Positions 656-9,623 of a DNA stretch of 45,817 bases are shown here, one piece after another. Source of the DNA: Bacteroidales bacterium. GTDB lineage: Bacteria > Bacteroidota > Bacteroidia > Bacteroidales > WCHB1-69. The DNA lies in NCBI GenBank assembly GCA_016281255.1, contig JAEEIG010000209.1, positions 1-45,817 on the forward strand, written 5' to 3'. Position 1 is the first letter of the stretch. The number at the start of each line of letters is the position of its first letter. The notes below the pieces were generated by a model. The model ran no database searches, was not told the DNA's origin, and was given only the letters and a program-made list of their open reading frames with translations. Both the position numbers and the translations under genes were made by a program.

Positions 656-2386
656 ATGAATATTAGCAATTTTCGTAACAGCTATCTTATCGACAAGGCT
701 TACCGGCTAACACTGGTGAGCGTTACGCTTACAGCATTGGCACCGCTCATAGCGACGCTGGTAGATGGGCTCTTTTCGAGCAATCTGTTGGGCAACGATG
801 CTTTCATCGCAGTGAGTGTAGCGCTACCTATAGTCAATGCAGTGAGCGTGCTGACGATGATATGTGAACGCGGCGGCGCAGTGCTTGCAGCAGGTCAGCT
901 GGCCAAGGGCAACCGCGACAAGGCCAACCGTATATACACGGCGGCTTTGGCCTCGGCGGTGATGGTGGCGGTATTAGCGGCGTTAGGCATCTGGTTAAAC
1001 CTCGACAGTATCTCTTCGGGGCTGACCGGCAGACCCGAGAGCGCAGCGTATGCCCGCGAGTACCTACAGGTGATCGTCATTTACCTGCTCATCCTGCCGC
1101 TAAACAACACGTTCAACGACTTTGCCACGCAGGAGGGTTTTCCGCAGTTAGCCACCCGGGCCGTGGCTACGGGCAGTGCGGCCAATGTGGTGCTCGACAT
1201 CCTTTTCATCGGTGTGCTCGGCATGGGCATCAGCGGTGCGGCATGGGGCACGGTCATTTCGGGTCTCATCAATCTCGCGCTCATATCTCCCTATTTCCTT
1301 AAGGGCAAGAGCCAGTTCAGATTGGCGCGACCGCAGGGCGACCTGGGTGCCATCATCGGCGAGAACCTCAAGCATGGCTTCGGTTTCAACGTGTACTTTA
1401 TCGTGGTAAATACCTTTATGCTGCTGGGCAACGCATTGGTACTGAAAGTGGCAGGACACGGCGGGTTGACGCTCTTTGATGTGTGTCTGCAGATACAGTC
1501 GGCCACGTTCTCGGTTGCTATGGGACTCACTATGGCCGGCGTCTCGCTCGTCACCTACATGCGTGCCAGCGGCGACAGCGACGGACTGCAGCGCATCATG
1601 CATAATACTGCCAGCATTGTGGTGGGATTCTACGGTGTGCTACTGCTGTTACTGGTGGCTGTGCCGCAGTTTTTCCTGTGGTGCTTTGGTCTCGACGGCA
1701 TCGACCTCGCCATGGCCCGCAGGGTATTCACCTGCTTTGGCATCTACTACTTCTGCTTCTGTGTGGTAGCGGTGTATGTCACCGTTGTACTACAACTGGC
1801 AGGTCACATAGCGGCCAAGATCGTGCTGGTATTCGCCATGGGTATCATAGCCTATCTGAGTATGCTTGGCCTTTCGAAGGTTAGTGCCGATGCCATGTGG
1901 CTGGGATTGATTGTGGGTGGTGTGCCTATCCTTGTGGCCAGTCTGGCCTACGGCTACTGGGAACACCGCAAGCACCCGTCCTATACTATGTTTTCGATGG
2001 TTGACAAGATGCCGTCGTATATTAAGTTCGAATGCTCAATAGATTATGATCAACATAATTTTGACGAGATGAAAAAGAAGATGAAGCTATTTGCCGACAC
2101 CTGCGAGATGAGTGACGAGATGAGCTCTAAGATGTACTCTACTATCCAGACGCTCTTTAACAATGCTCAGGAGCGCAGAAGCAGTCAGCTTAAATATCTC
2201 GACATCTCGCTCTGCGAGTTAGACGACGGAATACAGATGACCATCAAAGACTGCGGCCGTCCCTACGACCCGGTACACAATGGCATGAATGCCGCATCCG
2301 TAGGCGCCCGCTCTGCCACCTACCGCTACATGTTCACCATGAATGTAACAACTATAGTATGGGATAAAACCCTGAATCAAACATAA
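656..2386 (+). CDS. MATE-family efflux transporter with C-terminal RsbW/HATPase-like domain
   Basis: Hydrophobic MATE-like region. C-terminal ~130 aa carries a partial N-box (TLFNNAQER) and a G1-like DxGxPxDP motif (DCGRPYDP). ATG at 656 (MNISNFRNSYLIDKAYR) preferred over the upstream TTG at 599. Confidence 0.8.
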   Translation: MNISNFRNSYLIDKAYRLTLVSVTLTALAPLIATLVDGLFSSNLLGNDAFIAVSVALPIVNAVSVLTMICERGGAVLAAGQLAKGNRDKANRIYTAALASAVMVAVLAALGIWLNLDSISSGLTGRPESAAYAREYLQVIVIYLLILPLNNTFNDFATQEGFPQLATRAVATGSAANVVLDILFIGVLGMGISGAAWGTVISGLINLALISPYFLKGKSQFRLARPQGDLGAIIGENLKHGFGFNVYFIVVNTFMLLGNALVLKVAGHGGLTLFDVCLQIQSATFSVAMGLTMAGVSLVTYMRASGDSDGLQRIMHNTASIVVGFYGVLLLLLVAVPQFFLWCFGLDGIDLAMARRVFTCFGIYYFCFCVVAVYVTVVLQLAGHIAAKIVLVFAMGIIAYLSMLGLSKVSADAMWLGLIVGGVPILVASLAYGYWEHRKHPSYTMFSMVDKMPSYIKFECSIDYDQHNFDEMKKKMKLFADTCEMSDEMSSKMYSTIQTLFNNAQERRSSQLKYLDISLCELDDGIQMTIKDCGRPYDPVHNGMNAASVGARSATYRYMFTMNVTTIVWDKTLNQT

Positions 2387-2975
2387 AAAGGAGAAGAATA
2401 AAGCGTGAGCAAGAAGAGTCTGATCTGGAAAATACCCTGCATTGTTTGGGGTGTCGTTATGGGAATCGTATTGTTACTGTTGATTACGGTGACGGTTATT
2501 ATGGTGACACCCAAGCCCGCACGGCTGTCTTGCAGAAATGCGTGGAGGTCGTCAATGATCGGACCGCCTGGGATGTGGATCTGGGACAACTCTATCTGTC
2601 GCCGTTCCATCATTCCCCGATGATTCTCTACCGCGCCTACAAAGGCAAAGAAGATCTGCCGCTGCACATCGAAATAGACAGCCTTTATGTCGGTCATCGC
2701 GGTCAGGACACGCTGATTTACGTGCATGCCATGCGTCTGCATGGCAATGTGCAGAAAGTTGAGAATGGGAAGTCGAGCAAGGATTTCACAGCCCGTACTA
2801 TCGTGGTGGATCAACTGCTGTTGGAGCAAACGACTTTCCATTCCGACACTATGATAGACGCTGATGGTGTTGATGTTATCTTGAGGCATCTGAATGTGAA
2901 GAGTCCGGGACTCAATATCGCGAAAGGTGATTACCCGCTACACGGTTTGAAGATGGGCGCGGATTCATTTGTCTT
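2371..2975 (+). pseudogene. Truncated, frameshifted duplicate of the 5' end of the TamB-like gene at 4821, including about 34 nt upstream
   Basis: cctgaatcaaaca...ggag...GTGAGCAA(G/A)AA(G/A)AGTCTG matches 4789 onward. One-nt deletion near 2510 (gtgacacccaagcccgc versus gtgtcgccaaaagcccgc) shifts the frame. Protein similarity continues in the 2446..2994 frame (LYLSPFHHSPMILYRAYKGKEDLPLHIEIDSLYVGHRGQDTLIYVH) and ends around GLKMGADSF. Confidence 0.9.
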
Positions 2976-4769: not shown

Positions 4770-4820
4770 ACCCCAAGACTTCTTGTTTCCTGAATCAAAC
4801 AATAAAGGAGAAAATAAGGC

Positions 4821-7800
4821 GTGAGCAAAAAAAGTCTGCTCTGGAAAATACCGTGCATCCTTTTAGGTGTCATCCTGGGACTGGTACTGTTACTGCTGAT
4901 TACCGTAACGGTTATTCTGGTGTCGCCAAAAGCCCGCACGGCTGTCCTGCAAAAATGCGTGGAGATGGTCAATGAGCGGACCGACCTGAATGTGGACCTG
5001 GGACGGCTCTATCTGTCGCCTTTCCATCACTCTCCGATGATTCTCTATCGTGCCTACAAAGGCGAAGAAGACCTGCCGCTACACATAGAAATAGACAGTC
5101 TCTATGTCGGTCATCGCGGTCAGGACACGCTGATTTATGTGCATGGTCTGCGTCTGCAAGGTTGTATGAAGAAACCCGGGGCTGGGGTGTCGAAAGACGA
5201 TTTCCTGGCCCGTACTATCGTGGTGGACCAACTGCTGTTGGACCAAACAACGCTCCATTCCGACACTTTGATTGAAGCGGTGGGCATCGACGCTATCGTG
5301 AAACATCTGCATATAAAGAGTCCGGGACTCAACATCGCCAAAGGAGACTACCCGCTGCACGGCTTGAAGCTGTCGGATGCGTTTGTGGGCATTGCGCTGC
5401 GAGACACCGAGAGCGACACCGAGGACACCACCTCCACCCCGATGGCTTTCGAAATACCCGATGGCGAGTTGCGCAACGTGAGGTTCGTGCTCAACCCTAT
5501 GGGGCTGGATTTGCGTGCCGGCTCTCTCACCACGAATGTGCTGGCGGACGTAGGGGGCAACCTCTACGATGCACGTCGCCTGAATATCGGGAACGCCTCT
5601 CTTACACTCGGGACACTGCACCTGCCTTTTGACACGATCTATGGGGACGCCCGGGTGGATCTGAACACCGATCTGATTAACTCGAATCGTTTATTCGTCC
5701 AATCCGATGCTTTCGGGGCAAAAGCGGACCTGACGGCCACGACGCTGGATTTGGAGACGATGCGGGTGGATTTGGCAGGCAATGCCGATTATCAAGGCAA
5801 CAAGGCAAACTTGAGAGGATTCTATGATATTGATGATGAGCTGTATGACATGCTGGTGAACGTTGAACAAGTGAACCTGAACCCGTTCCTCCAAGACAAA
5901 GCCCTCGTGCTGTTGGCAGGCGAAATACACGCTCAGGGAAAAGGCATAGATCCACATTCCCCCGCGATGAAGTGCAAAGTGGCCATGAACCTGACCCGTT
6001 GCATCTACAATCAAATTGATGTTTCCGGTCTGGCCCTTGACGCCGAACTGGCCAATAAAACCGTGGCCGGAAACCTGCATTTGCCGGTGACGATGACGGA
6101 CCGTGACCTGCAACTGAAGGCAGAGACGGAGCATCAGTTCCGCGTATCTGACTTTTTCACCCCAAAGCGGATGAGCGTGGACTACCATACGCAAATGAAG
6201 GATGTGGTGGCGCACATAGCGGGCGATGATTTTGATATCGACACCCTGAACCTTGATTTCACAACGGACACCACCACATCGCTGTATCTGGCCACGCAAG
6301 GACTTGTCATCGATGCCCAAAGCCCCATGCATGCACTCCGGCTGGTGGATGAAGTGCAACCGCTGCTTGGAGTCGTTGCCGACACCGCGTTTGTGAATCC
6401 CATTGTCTCGTTGCAAGACCTGACACTGCTGGATACACTCCAGAGGCTTATTCCAAACCTGCAGGCGGCCATAACGCTGACGGAAGGAAGTCCCGTCCAG
6501 GCTATCATCGAGCGGGCTGGATTGGACATCAATGAGTTGACGATGCTGTTGAAGTCCGATTCTCTCCAATCAGACTTGGCACTGGACGTGTCCATTCCGA
6601 ACATTGAGCCTGCGGACGACAGTACGGGCTTGCACCTTCCCCCCACAGCGGCAACGTTGCTGGTCAACATGGCGGAAGGCAAGACCACCGCCTCGCTCAC
6701 GGTCAATGCCAACATCACCGATGGCGTGATGAGTGTGAACAGCCTCTGCACCGACGCCACGCTGCAACTTGATCTGGAACGAAACGGACGCAAGCTGAGT
6801 GGAACAGGGCACCTTACGCTGGACAGCCTCGAATACGACAATATGAATCTCGAAAACCGGACGGCGGACATCTGGATTATGCCCTCTGAGCAATATGAAA
6901 ACGCCATCCGGGCAGATATTCGGTTGGACGACATCCCCCTTGAGCTGGTGAACAGCATCCTGGACAGGGAGGACATCGACCTGTACGGTGCAGCCCGGGC
7001 CAGGGCTACTGCCGACGGCTTGCCTGCACAATTGGATCTCTCCGCCGAAGTGCTGCCACTGGATGTAAGCGCCCATTACAAGCCTTACGATGTACAGTTA
7101 AACTTAGGCGAGACACCTATCACCATGGAGCATAACCATGTGAAATTAAAAGATGTGCGCATATACAGTGTCAACGGTTCCTATCTGGCGCTGAACGGTG
7201 GATTGGACTTGAACACCATGCTCCTGGATGTAGATTTGACCGCCGATAATTTCGCCCCGCTGGAACTGCTGCCAGATGGACCTGTCCCTGTTTATGGCAA
7301 CCTGGAAACCGATGTCCGCGGACGGGTGACCGGACCCTTAGATAGCATTCATGCCGACGTGGATGTCACAGTCCTGCCCACCACAGACCTCACCTATCCG
7401 ATAGACGAGAAGAATCTGGCGCAATTCAAACCGCACGGCACGGTCAACATACAGTACAACACCACTGACGGGGAGCTCAACTACGGCGGAACCATCCATG
7501 TGGACGAAGGGCTGGTCCGCTTTTCACCCAAGCTATATCCCATGATTCCCTTCCATGTGGATTCGGGAAGCCATGTCACTCTCAATGGTTCCTTAGGCCA
7601 GACCATTCTGGACCTTTCCGCATCGCAACAGGTGAAAGCGGATGTGCAATCGGCGGGTGAAGAGACACGCCGGGTGACCTTCAACACAGGCGTGCGCGTA
7701 AACGGCATTCTCGATTCGGTAGGTCTCAATGCCATCGGCTTCTTCCTTGAAGCACCGGGTGACGAAACCATCACGCGCGAACTTGCCTCCATGGACGAGG

Positions 7801-9623
7801 AAACTCGCGAAGGCATAGCGGCGGCATTGCTGGCTACCGGAATGTATATGGGCGAAAGCAATGTGGCGGCGCAAAAGGACGGATATGCCCTGTCCAGCAT
7901 CATCAACAGCCGTATCAATGCCGCCATGGCGAATTCCAATGTCGGAAAAATCGTCGATATTGATATCAGTAGCGGACAAACCGAACATGCGTCCGGCAAG
8001 ACCAATGACATGAATATCGCCATCAGCAAGTCCCTGTTCAATGACAAACTGCGCATTACGGTCGGCTCCACTATCTCCGACAACCCGGAGGTCAATAAAG
8101 CCAACGGTTTGCTCAGTCGTATTTCGGCAGACTATAAGCTGACCCAGTCGGGCAACGTCTATCTGCGTTTGTTCTCACAGCGCGATTATGACAATATCTT
8201 TGAAGGCGAACTCAACAAGTCCGGTATAGGCGCTGCGTTTACCAAGCAATGGAAACATTACCGATTCATGCCTTCTTTGGGCGATTCCGTCCTGCGCACA
8301 TACAATCTCACAGCGGATGCGGACGTCGCTTATCGTTCCAACAACAGCATCGGTCCCAACCTCACCCTCGCCCATTCGATGCGGAACCTCCTGGGGCGCG
8401 GCGAGACTTTCGCGTTCAAGGGCTATGGGGCGTACTATTGGTCGCTGCGCGAACGGCATCCGGGAGACCCGAAAACAACCAACACCTACAAATTCGGCAT
8501 CGATGTCGCGCTCATCTTCCCGTATCTGCACTGGGTAGGCGACCATAATCCCGACGGCGACACGCGCTACCGAGTAGGTTACAAGTATGAGAACATAGCA
8601 GGTGGTTACGGTGTTCACAAGTTCTCCGGCGCCTTTTCGTATTTCATCCGCAAGTCCGGTTATGTCACGCATGTCTTCACCCCTGCCTCGCTCTCCGTGG
8701 TCAGAGTGAAGGCCGAGTCGCCTGATCTGATTAATGTTGCGGCAAACCGTCCGGAACTCCTCAAACTGCTTTACGGAAACGAGTTCATCCCCTCCATCGG
8801 CTATGGAATCACCTATAGTGATTACCGCTCCAAACGGAAAGTCAACACCATGATTGACTTTGAAGTCAAAGAAGCGGGTAATCTGACTAACGCCATCTAC
8901 TGCATCTTTGGTCACAAATGGAGCGAGCATGACAAAGAAATCGCCCATATCCCCTACGACCAGTTTGTCAGGGTGACAGCCGAACTGTGGAACAAGTTCA
9001 ACCTGACGGATCGAATATGCATCGCAACGCGTCTTTTCGCAGGTGCCAATATACCGATGGGTAACTCCTTCGAATCCGCCCCGCTTTCCGAAGCCTTCTA
9101 TGCCGGTGGCCCCAACAGTTTGCGAGCCTCCGAACCATACGCTTACGGACCGGGAAATTTCCATAGCACCAAATATAACCAGAACTTTTTCCATGCCGGG
9201 GATATAAAACTCGAAGCCAACTTCGAGCTGCGCTTCCCTCTCGTATGGAAAATCAACGGCGCCGTCTTCGTCGATGCCGGCAACGTATGGAACTGGTATA
9301 ACATCTCCGACGTCCTCAACAGCGAAGAATATGAGTTGTTTGTCGAAAGAATGGGGATAACGGAAGAATTGCAAAACGGAATCATCGGGAATCCGAATAT
9401 CGCGAAGCAGATAGCCTTAGGTACAGGCGCAGGACTCCGACTCGACATCGACGGACTCGTTATTCGCTTGGACTTGGGCATTGGCATCCACGCGCCTTAC
9501 CAGACATACAAATACACCAAAGAGGGCACGCCTGACCTCACACGACCGATCAACACCTACTACAACATGCCTTCTGTTCTGGATGGCCTGCGCTTCAACT
9601 TCAGCATAGGCTACCCGTTCTAA
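4821..9623 (+). CDS. TamB-like protein fused to a C-terminal Omp85/TamA-type outer-membrane beta-barrel (1600 aa)
   Basis: N-terminal basic/TM anchor (MSKKSLLWKIPCILLGVILGLVLLLLITVTVILV), long AsmA/TamB-like beta-rich region, TamB_C-like segment (ISKSLFNDKLRITVGSTIS...ISADYKLTQSGNVYLRLFSQRDYDNIFEGELNKSGIGAAFTKQW), then an Omp85-like barrel (FYAGGPNSLRASEPYAYGPG, GAVFVDAGNVWNW, LRLDIDGLVIRLDLGIG) ending in ...LRFNFSIGYPF with terminal Phe. GTG start. Confidence 0.88.
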   Translation: MSKKSLLWKIPCILLGVILGLVLLLLITVTVILVSPKARTAVLQKCVEMVNERTDLNVDLGRLYLSPFHHSPMILYRAYKGEEDLPLHIEIDSLYVGHRGQDTLIYVHGLRLQGCMKKPGAGVSKDDFLARTIVVDQLLLDQTTLHSDTLIEAVGIDAIVKHLHIKSPGLNIAKGDYPLHGLKLSDAFVGIALRDTESDTEDTTSTPMAFEIPDGELRNVRFVLNPMGLDLRAGSLTTNVLADVGGNLYDARRLNIGNASLTLGTLHLPFDTIYGDARVDLNTDLINSNRLFVQSDAFGAKADLTATTLDLETMRVDLAGNADYQGNKANLRGFYDIDDELYDMLVNVEQVNLNPFLQDKALVLLAGEIHAQGKGIDPHSPAMKCKVAMNLTRCIYNQIDVSGLALDAELANKTVAGNLHLPVTMTDRDLQLKAETEHQFRVSDFFTPKRMSVDYHTQMKDVVAHIAGDDFDIDTLNLDFTTDTTTSLYLATQGLVIDAQSPMHALRLVDEVQPLLGVVADTAFVNPIVSLQDLTLLDTLQRLIPNLQAAITLTEGSPVQAIIERAGLDINELTMLLKSDSLQSDLALDVSIPNIEPADDSTGLHLPPTAATLLVNMAEGKTTASLTVNANITDGVMSVNSLCTDATLQLDLERNGRKLSGTGHLTLDSLEYDNMNLENRTADIWIMPSEQYENAIRADIRLDDIPLELVNSILDREDIDLYGAARARATADGLPAQLDLSAEVLPLDVSAHYKPYDVQLNLGETPITMEHNHVKLKDVRIYSVNGSYLALNGGLDLNTMLLDVDLTADNFAPLELLPDGPVPVYGNLETDVRGRVTGPLDSIHADVDVTVLPTTDLTYPIDEKNLAQFKPHGTVNIQYNTTDGELNYGGTIHVDEGLVRFSPKLYPMIPFHVDSGSHVTLNGSLGQTILDLSASQQVKADVQSAGEETRRVTFNTGVRVNGILDSVGLNAIGFFLEAPGDETITRELASMDEETREGIAAALLATGMYMGESNVAAQKDGYALSSIINSRINAAMANSNVGKIVDIDISSGQTEHASGKTNDMNIAISKSLFNDKLRITVGSTISDNPEVNKANGLLSRISADYKLTQSGNVYLRLFSQRDYDNIFEGELNKSGIGAAFTKQWKHYRFMPSLGDSVLRTYNLTADADVAYRSNNSIGPNLTLAHSMRNLLGRGETFAFKGYGAYYWSLRERHPGDPKTTNTYKFGIDVALIFPYLHWVGDHNPDGDTRYRVGYKYENIAGGYGVHKFSGAFSYFIRKSGYVTHVFTPASLSVVRVKAESPDLINVAANRPELLKLLYGNEFIPSIGYGITYSDYRSKRKVNTMIDFEVKEAGNLTNAIYCIFGHKWSEHDKEIAHIPYDQFVRVTAELWNKFNLTDRICIATRLFAGANIPMGNSFESAPLSEAFYAGGPNSLRASEPYAYGPGNFHSTKYNQNFFHAGDIKLEANFELRFPLVWKINGAVFVDAGNVWNWYNISDVLNSEEYELFVERMGITEELQNGIIGNPNIAKQIALGTGAGLRLDIDGLVIRLDLGIGIHAPYQTYKYTKEGTPDLTRPINTYYNMPSVLDGLRFNFSIGYPF

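Follow-up and report, generated by a model that had tools for sequence, protein, structure and literature searches.

The gene at positions 4821..9623 of the forward strand of the window (the whole 45,817-nucleotide stretch of Bacteroidales DNA analyzed here) almost certainly encodes a fusion protein of TamB2-TamL2 architecture and TamB2-TamL2 origin. A preliminary description of this DNA had claimed an uninterrupted ORF of 1600 amino acids in which TamB is covalently joined to an Omp85 barrel of the TamA/TamL type, and both statements were borne out: the entire gene is read from a GTG start without internal stops to a final Phe residue and is a single ORF also in about 38 homologous loci, and the union of the two parts is upheld by profiles, alignment and phylogeny as well as by these loci. 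From the N- to the C-terminus the chain comprises a signal-anchor helix, a TamB-type arm, a set of pseudosubstrate strands, a link of about 10-20 residues and a TamL-type Omp85 barrel. The protein is best called a TamB2-TamL2 fusion; the features that define TamL (lipid anchor, POTRA domains and a score above the curated cut-off) are missing from it.

The predicted signal-anchor or inner-membrane helix (residues 9-34; 4845..4922, + strand) coincides with the hydropathy maximum of the protein (3.1 at residue 16) and was modelled as a helix by AlphaFold2, with low local confidence, in agreement with the N-terminal transmembrane helix proposed previously. It is followed by a beta-rich, putatively periplasmic arm of the TamB type (residues 35-1045; 4923..7955, +). 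In a profile-profile comparison performed with hhalign, residues 22-1146 were aligned to positions 28-1525 of TamB2 with a probability of 100% (E 5e-67). The Pfam family TamB (PF04357) produced no match in the window protein, where Omp85 (PF01103) was the sole Pfam match; in a relative that is 85% identical to it (L035), both families scored above cut-off on one chain, TamB at residues 865-1121 (51.2 bits, cut-off 22.4) and Omp85 at residues 1381-1601. PF04357 was above cut-off also in fusions of the genomes G246, G323 and G332. The coexistence of both domains on one chain, which had been suggested as a check, was thus observed in the relative, the window protein itself showing the Omp85 half of the pair; based on the matches of L035 and the three genomes, the region equivalent to PF04357 corresponds to residues 865-1121 of the window protein (7413..8183, +). 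The AlphaFold2 model of residues 1-1000 is beta-rich (mean pLDDT 72). By structure comparison its top PDB matches were LptD and apolipoprotein B, and TamB of the TamAB complex (9xdd_B) appeared lower, as a weak match (probability 0.98, TM-score 0.32); the model lends weak support to a taco fold of the arm.

A passenger-barrel order would also be expected of an autotransporter-like protein (type V, of the patatin-like Omp85 kind) in which the N-terminal part is carried to the surface as the passenger, and Omp85 barrels such as that of PlpD do bear other domains (PMC4104836). This interpretation is very improbable, considering that profiles identify the N-terminal part as TamB, that this part starts with a long hydrophobic helix, and that its TamB counterpart adjoins TamL2 in other genomes.

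The TamL-type Omp85 barrel domain (residues 1163-1600; 8307..9620, +) was recognized by the lipo_TamL and PF01103 profiles and by phylogeny. The C-terminal part of the window protein matches lipo_TamL (NCBIfam NF052279) up to model position 747 with 327.6 bits (E 1.8e-97), under the curated cut-off of 400, and residues 1381-1600 match PF01103 with 57.7 bits (E 1.8e-15, cut-off 24). Among the fusions, the lipo_TamL match mostly starts at model position 331-335 and runs to the end of the model, covering the barrel only, whereas separate TamL proteins match from position 1-3; this difference indicates that, as judged from the sequence, the fusions have a complete barrel, with neither the lipoprotein signal nor POTRA domains. 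The match of the window protein itself starts at 224-231, in a stretch that covers residues aligning with TamB. Profile matches and alignment disclosed no TamL lipoprotein signal with its lipidated Cys in the fusion, the TamL N-terminus being gone. Also, no Pfam match to a POTRA domain was obtained in the window protein, whereas TamL2 and TamL1 do yield POTRA matches, and together with the barrel-only match of the fusions this result supports the lack of POTRA domains noted at the outset.

The loop-6 motif FYAGGPNSLRASEPYAYGPG (9096..9155, +) contains Arg1435 and the barrel motif GAVFVDAGNVWNW (9258..9296, +) contains Asp1485 (the Asp of VDAGN), both residues being invariant in 39 fusions, and the C-terminal beta-signal FNFSIGYPF (9594..9620, +) ends in Phe1600, which is found in 38 of the 39 (the remaining row is without its end). 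These residues and PF01103 substantiate the Omp85 signatures that had been attributed to the C-terminal ~450 amino acids. The replacement of RG by RA at loop 6, described as part of these signatures, is indeed present but not peculiar to the fusion, as L072 and L073 have separate TamL proteins that read NSIRA and NSMRA, respectively. The AlphaFold2 model of residues 401-1600 (mean pLDDT 60.6, with much of the barrel below 50) is too weak for a strand count or for displaying a closed 16-strand barrel or the hybrid gate; its comparison with the PDB gave no meaningful matches, and searches of the PDB by sequence returned weak BamA matches alone.

The pseudosubstrate strands typical of the TamB C-terminus (residues 1046-1146, last strand EGELNKSGIGAAFTKQW; 7956..8258, +), defined by alignment with 13 separate TamB2 C-termini, are present in the fusion at an internal position and not at the chain end. 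They are followed by the junction link (residues 1147-1162; 8259..8306, +), assigned by alignment, the end of which (GDSVLRTYN) aligns to the final segment preceding the TamL2 barrel. In the junction alignment, about 10-20 residues separate the last strand of TamB2 from the point where the TamL2 barrel begins. All 39 fusions have the Gly of SGIG, and the spacing between SGIG and YRSN varies from 27 to 47 amino acids (37 in 27 of the 39). Sequence conservation holds across the junction with no collapse, and dN/dS at residues 1051-1180, which span it, was 0.04-0.20 in comparisons with six relatives; by this measure, purifying selection spans the junction. With the same relatives, the TamB part gave dN/dS values of 0.15-0.18 and the barrel values of 0.075-0.13, evidencing slower evolution of the barrel than of the arm.

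Scanning species genomes yielded 41 loci with titles of Bacteroidales or other Bacteroidota; the records are mostly uncultured or metagenome-assembled and most titles name a ruminant host or a rumen series. When loci from the scan and from the genome search are taken together, a full-length single ORF occurs at 38 of them, with 54-85% identity. An assembly artefact, a missed stop or a decaying gene could be suspected from the draft condition of the genome and from one locus (L044) where the fusion gene is split by a frameshift, but the conservation of the ORF in about 38 loci, several of them on contigs >200 kb, and dN/dS values well below 1 rule out this explanation for the family and render it practically negligible.

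The same genome encodes, on different contigs, a separate TamB of 1542 amino acids (L047, G000:C38) and a separate lipoprotein TamL of 798 amino acids (L048, G000:C83), which were detected by the genome search for separate tamA/tamL recommended in the preliminary description. Separate TamB and TamL proteins were present in each of the other fusion genomes checked. The fusion is an extra copy beside canonical TamB and TamL; the idea that it replaces the canonical TAM was rejected, as both proteins are present. Two more Omp85-family proteins of about 480-505 amino acids (L050, G000:C196; L049, G000:C56), too short for a full POTRA set, and another Omp85 of about 900 amino acids, BamA-like in appearance, are encoded in this genome.

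In many other Bacteroidales, tamB and tamL are adjacent genes, arranged in the same order as in the fusion and commonly overlapping by 4 bp. These pairs are taken to correspond to tamB2-tamL2 of Flavobacterium johnsoniae, overlapping and non-essential genes of an operon present in 20 of 30 species, which was described in 2025 with no known function (PMC12045153). In the barrel tree, all of the fusions included (18/18) form one clade (100/100), and they group, away from TamL1, with 13 of the 14 rows that carry the label TamL2 (100/100); the remaining row (L073), for which no TamB neighbour was confirmed, lies with TamL1, on a long branch. The TamL1 of the window's family shows a very long branch in this tree (2.3 changes per column), suggesting fast change in that lineage. 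The simplest history compatible with the alignments would be a deletion that began just past the final strand of TamB2 and stopped where the last TamL2 POTRA domain ends. No separate TamB2-TamL2 pair was seen in the fusion-bearing genomes examined. No independent TamB-Omp85 fusion was present among the top matches from 398 genomes of the phylum and 295 of the order, a search that fusions with other barrels would escape.

Within the window's family, the fusion was found in 24 of 105 genomes, distributed in four genera, and several genomes that are 98-99% complete and belong to the same genus as fusion carriers are devoid of it. Fusions also occur in two other families (f100 and f41); in the barrel tree these nest among the remaining fusions, and the TamL1 proteins of f100 and f41 group with their own families. 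The genes upstream of the fusion loci fall into many families, with no conserved neighbours. This patchy spread, the presence in two other families, the nesting and the differing upstream genes fit, and suggest, horizontal transfer of a stand-alone gene accompanied by losses. Some genomes contain two full-length fusion copies (contigs C4 and C27 of G332; L030 and L035 in one MAG). The titles of L006-L046 correspond mostly to ruminant samples (yak, goat, sheep, deer, buffalo and the RUG series), and this dominance of ruminants among the fusion records may reflect a rumen-specific role or sampling.

In the TamAB hybrid barrel of Escherichia coli, TamA beta-1 is paired with the final strand of TamB, the hairpin loop before this strand touches extracellular loop 1 and POTRA 1-3 hold TamB (PMC12800296). 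Lipid-like density was observed in the TamB groove, to which phospholipid transport was assigned, and a semi-closed state of TamAB was proposed to insert OMPs (PMC12800296). According to the TamAB topology, the final TamB strand would end on the periplasmic side, where beta-1 would also begin; since in the fusion these two points are joined by about 10-20 residues, it can be hypothesized that the TamB last strand/beta-1 contact is tied covalently, that the hybrid contact is thereby fixed and that POTRA domains are no longer needed to recruit TamB. Based on this analogy, fusion of the adjacent and often overlapping tamB2 and tamL2 genes would have generated a single-chain, POTRA-less TAM in which the N-terminal helix remains in the inner membrane, the beta-taco arm spans the periplasm and the barrel is inserted in the outer membrane. 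Such a protein would act as an inner-to-outer membrane lipid-transfer bridge, the barrel serving as docking site and exit gate and not as a general OMP insertase.

The probability that the fusion functions as a lipid bridge is estimated at roughly 0.55-0.6. This function is favoured over that of a general OMP insertase in view of the missing POTRA domains, the probable occupation of the gate strand by TamB, and the assignment of phospholipid transport to the TamB groove, with OMP insertion proposed for the semi-closed state (PMC12800296). Confidence in the lipid bridge is lowered by the argument that lipid transport is probably not the role of F. johnsoniae TamL, and by an AlphaFold model from this organism in which TamB pairs with the last, not the first, strand of the TamL barrel (PMC12045153). 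POTRA 2 is required for the function of E. coli TamA (PMC12800296), and in view of this requirement the loss of POTRA domains could mean a changed role. Moreover, the short link need not impose the pairing of TamB with beta-1 at all times.

Alternatively, the protein could be a fused OMP-assembly factor in which unfolded OMPs are delivered by TamB to the barrel and inserted by its gate, a mechanism that has been put forward for TAM and autotransporters. TamA and TamB take part in OMP insertion (PMC12800296), and the fusion retains conserved barrel motifs including the loop-6 Arg; however, every POTRA domain has been lost, the gate strand is tied to the last strand of its own TamB and the genome retains the canonical TamL as well as the BamA-like Omp85 of about 900 amino acids, making this role rather unlikely. 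The barrel might also be a structural tether only, anchoring the TamB end in the outer membrane as YnbE does for YdbH, with no gate activity. Although the loss of POTRA domains and a gate that is probably occupied agree with a tether, and relative L079 has a weak YdbH-like match (E 5.9e-6, just under cut-off), the slower change of the barrel relative to the arm (dN/dS 0.075-0.13 vs 0.15-0.18) and the conservation of the invariant loop-6 and other barrel motifs suggest more than anchoring, and this alternative is considered improbable. Anchoring in both membranes, a 1:1 stoichiometry and the transfer of lipids or OMPs, anticipated in the preliminary description, are a reasonable inference. The more complete picture, in which one polypeptide connects the inner membrane, by way of a beta-taco groove, with a barrel locked in the hybrid state and constitutes a lipid conduit free of POTRA domains, passed on from species to species as one gene, is offered tentatively, with somewhat less than an even chance of being correct.

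TAM, TamB, TamL and the TamB2-TamL2 operon are already known. By barrel phylogeny and TamB profile, the nearest system is the TamB2-TamL2 operon (Fjoh_1899-Fjoh_1900, PMC12045153), which is similar to the fusion in the families of TamB and barrel and in their order; it encodes two proteins, TamL2 with a lipoprotein signal and POTRA domains, whereas the fusion is one chain that has lost both, and the TamB arm of the latter is about 380 residues shorter than that of TamB2. Canonical Bacteroidota TamB and TamL also have a TamB-type arm and a TamL-type barrel, but they are encoded by separate genes at other loci of the same genome and their barrel belongs to a different clade. In E. coli TamAB (PMC12800296; PDB 9xdc/9xdd) the last strand of TamB meets TamA beta-1, a contact that is linked covalently in the fusion; unlike the latter, TamAB consists of two proteins, with three POTRA domains and reversible hybrid/non-hybrid states. 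YdbH-YnbE, YhdP and other AsmA-like bridges have beta-taco arms anchored in the inner membrane and implicated in lipid transport, as predicted for the arm of the fusion. To our knowledge, none of these bridges carries an Omp85 barrel on the chain. In the PlpD patatin and WD40 fusions of Omp85, the added part is not TamB and is not known to have an inner-membrane anchor. These proteins share with the fusion an Omp85 barrel bearing an extra N-terminal domain (PMC4104836). No description of a TamB-Omp85 fusion was found in the literature searched, which left out most subscription papers and preprints, and novelty is thus not proven.

The two activities of TAM, lipid transport and OMP insertion, have been ascribed to different states of the TamA-TamB contact, which is reversible, and the holding and moving of TamB to the POTRA domains. 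The fusion can be regarded as a natural experiment in which, by evolution, the POTRA domains were removed and the contact was tied covalently, and it allows testing whether it is in the hybrid state that lipid is transported and whether POTRA domains serve recruitment only. It also makes testable how a barrel is inserted into the outer membrane when its own chain is anchored in the inner membrane, and provides gene-fusion evidence for TamB2 and TamL2 as partners.

Upstream of the gene, at 2371-2972 (+), the window contains a decayed and frameshifted partial copy of the fusion 5' end of about 600 bp, with 82% DNA identity to about 4789-5386 and 76% identity over residues 37-192. A related locus (L083/L035) displays the same neighbourhood without this decayed copy. 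Elsewhere in the window (9647-39484), the genes checked by Pfam look ordinary and include those for SecA, a MutS domain V protein with Smr, TrkH, TilS, a class-V aminotransferase, GH3, a protein with a secretion-system C-terminal sorting domain and a LytTR regulator.
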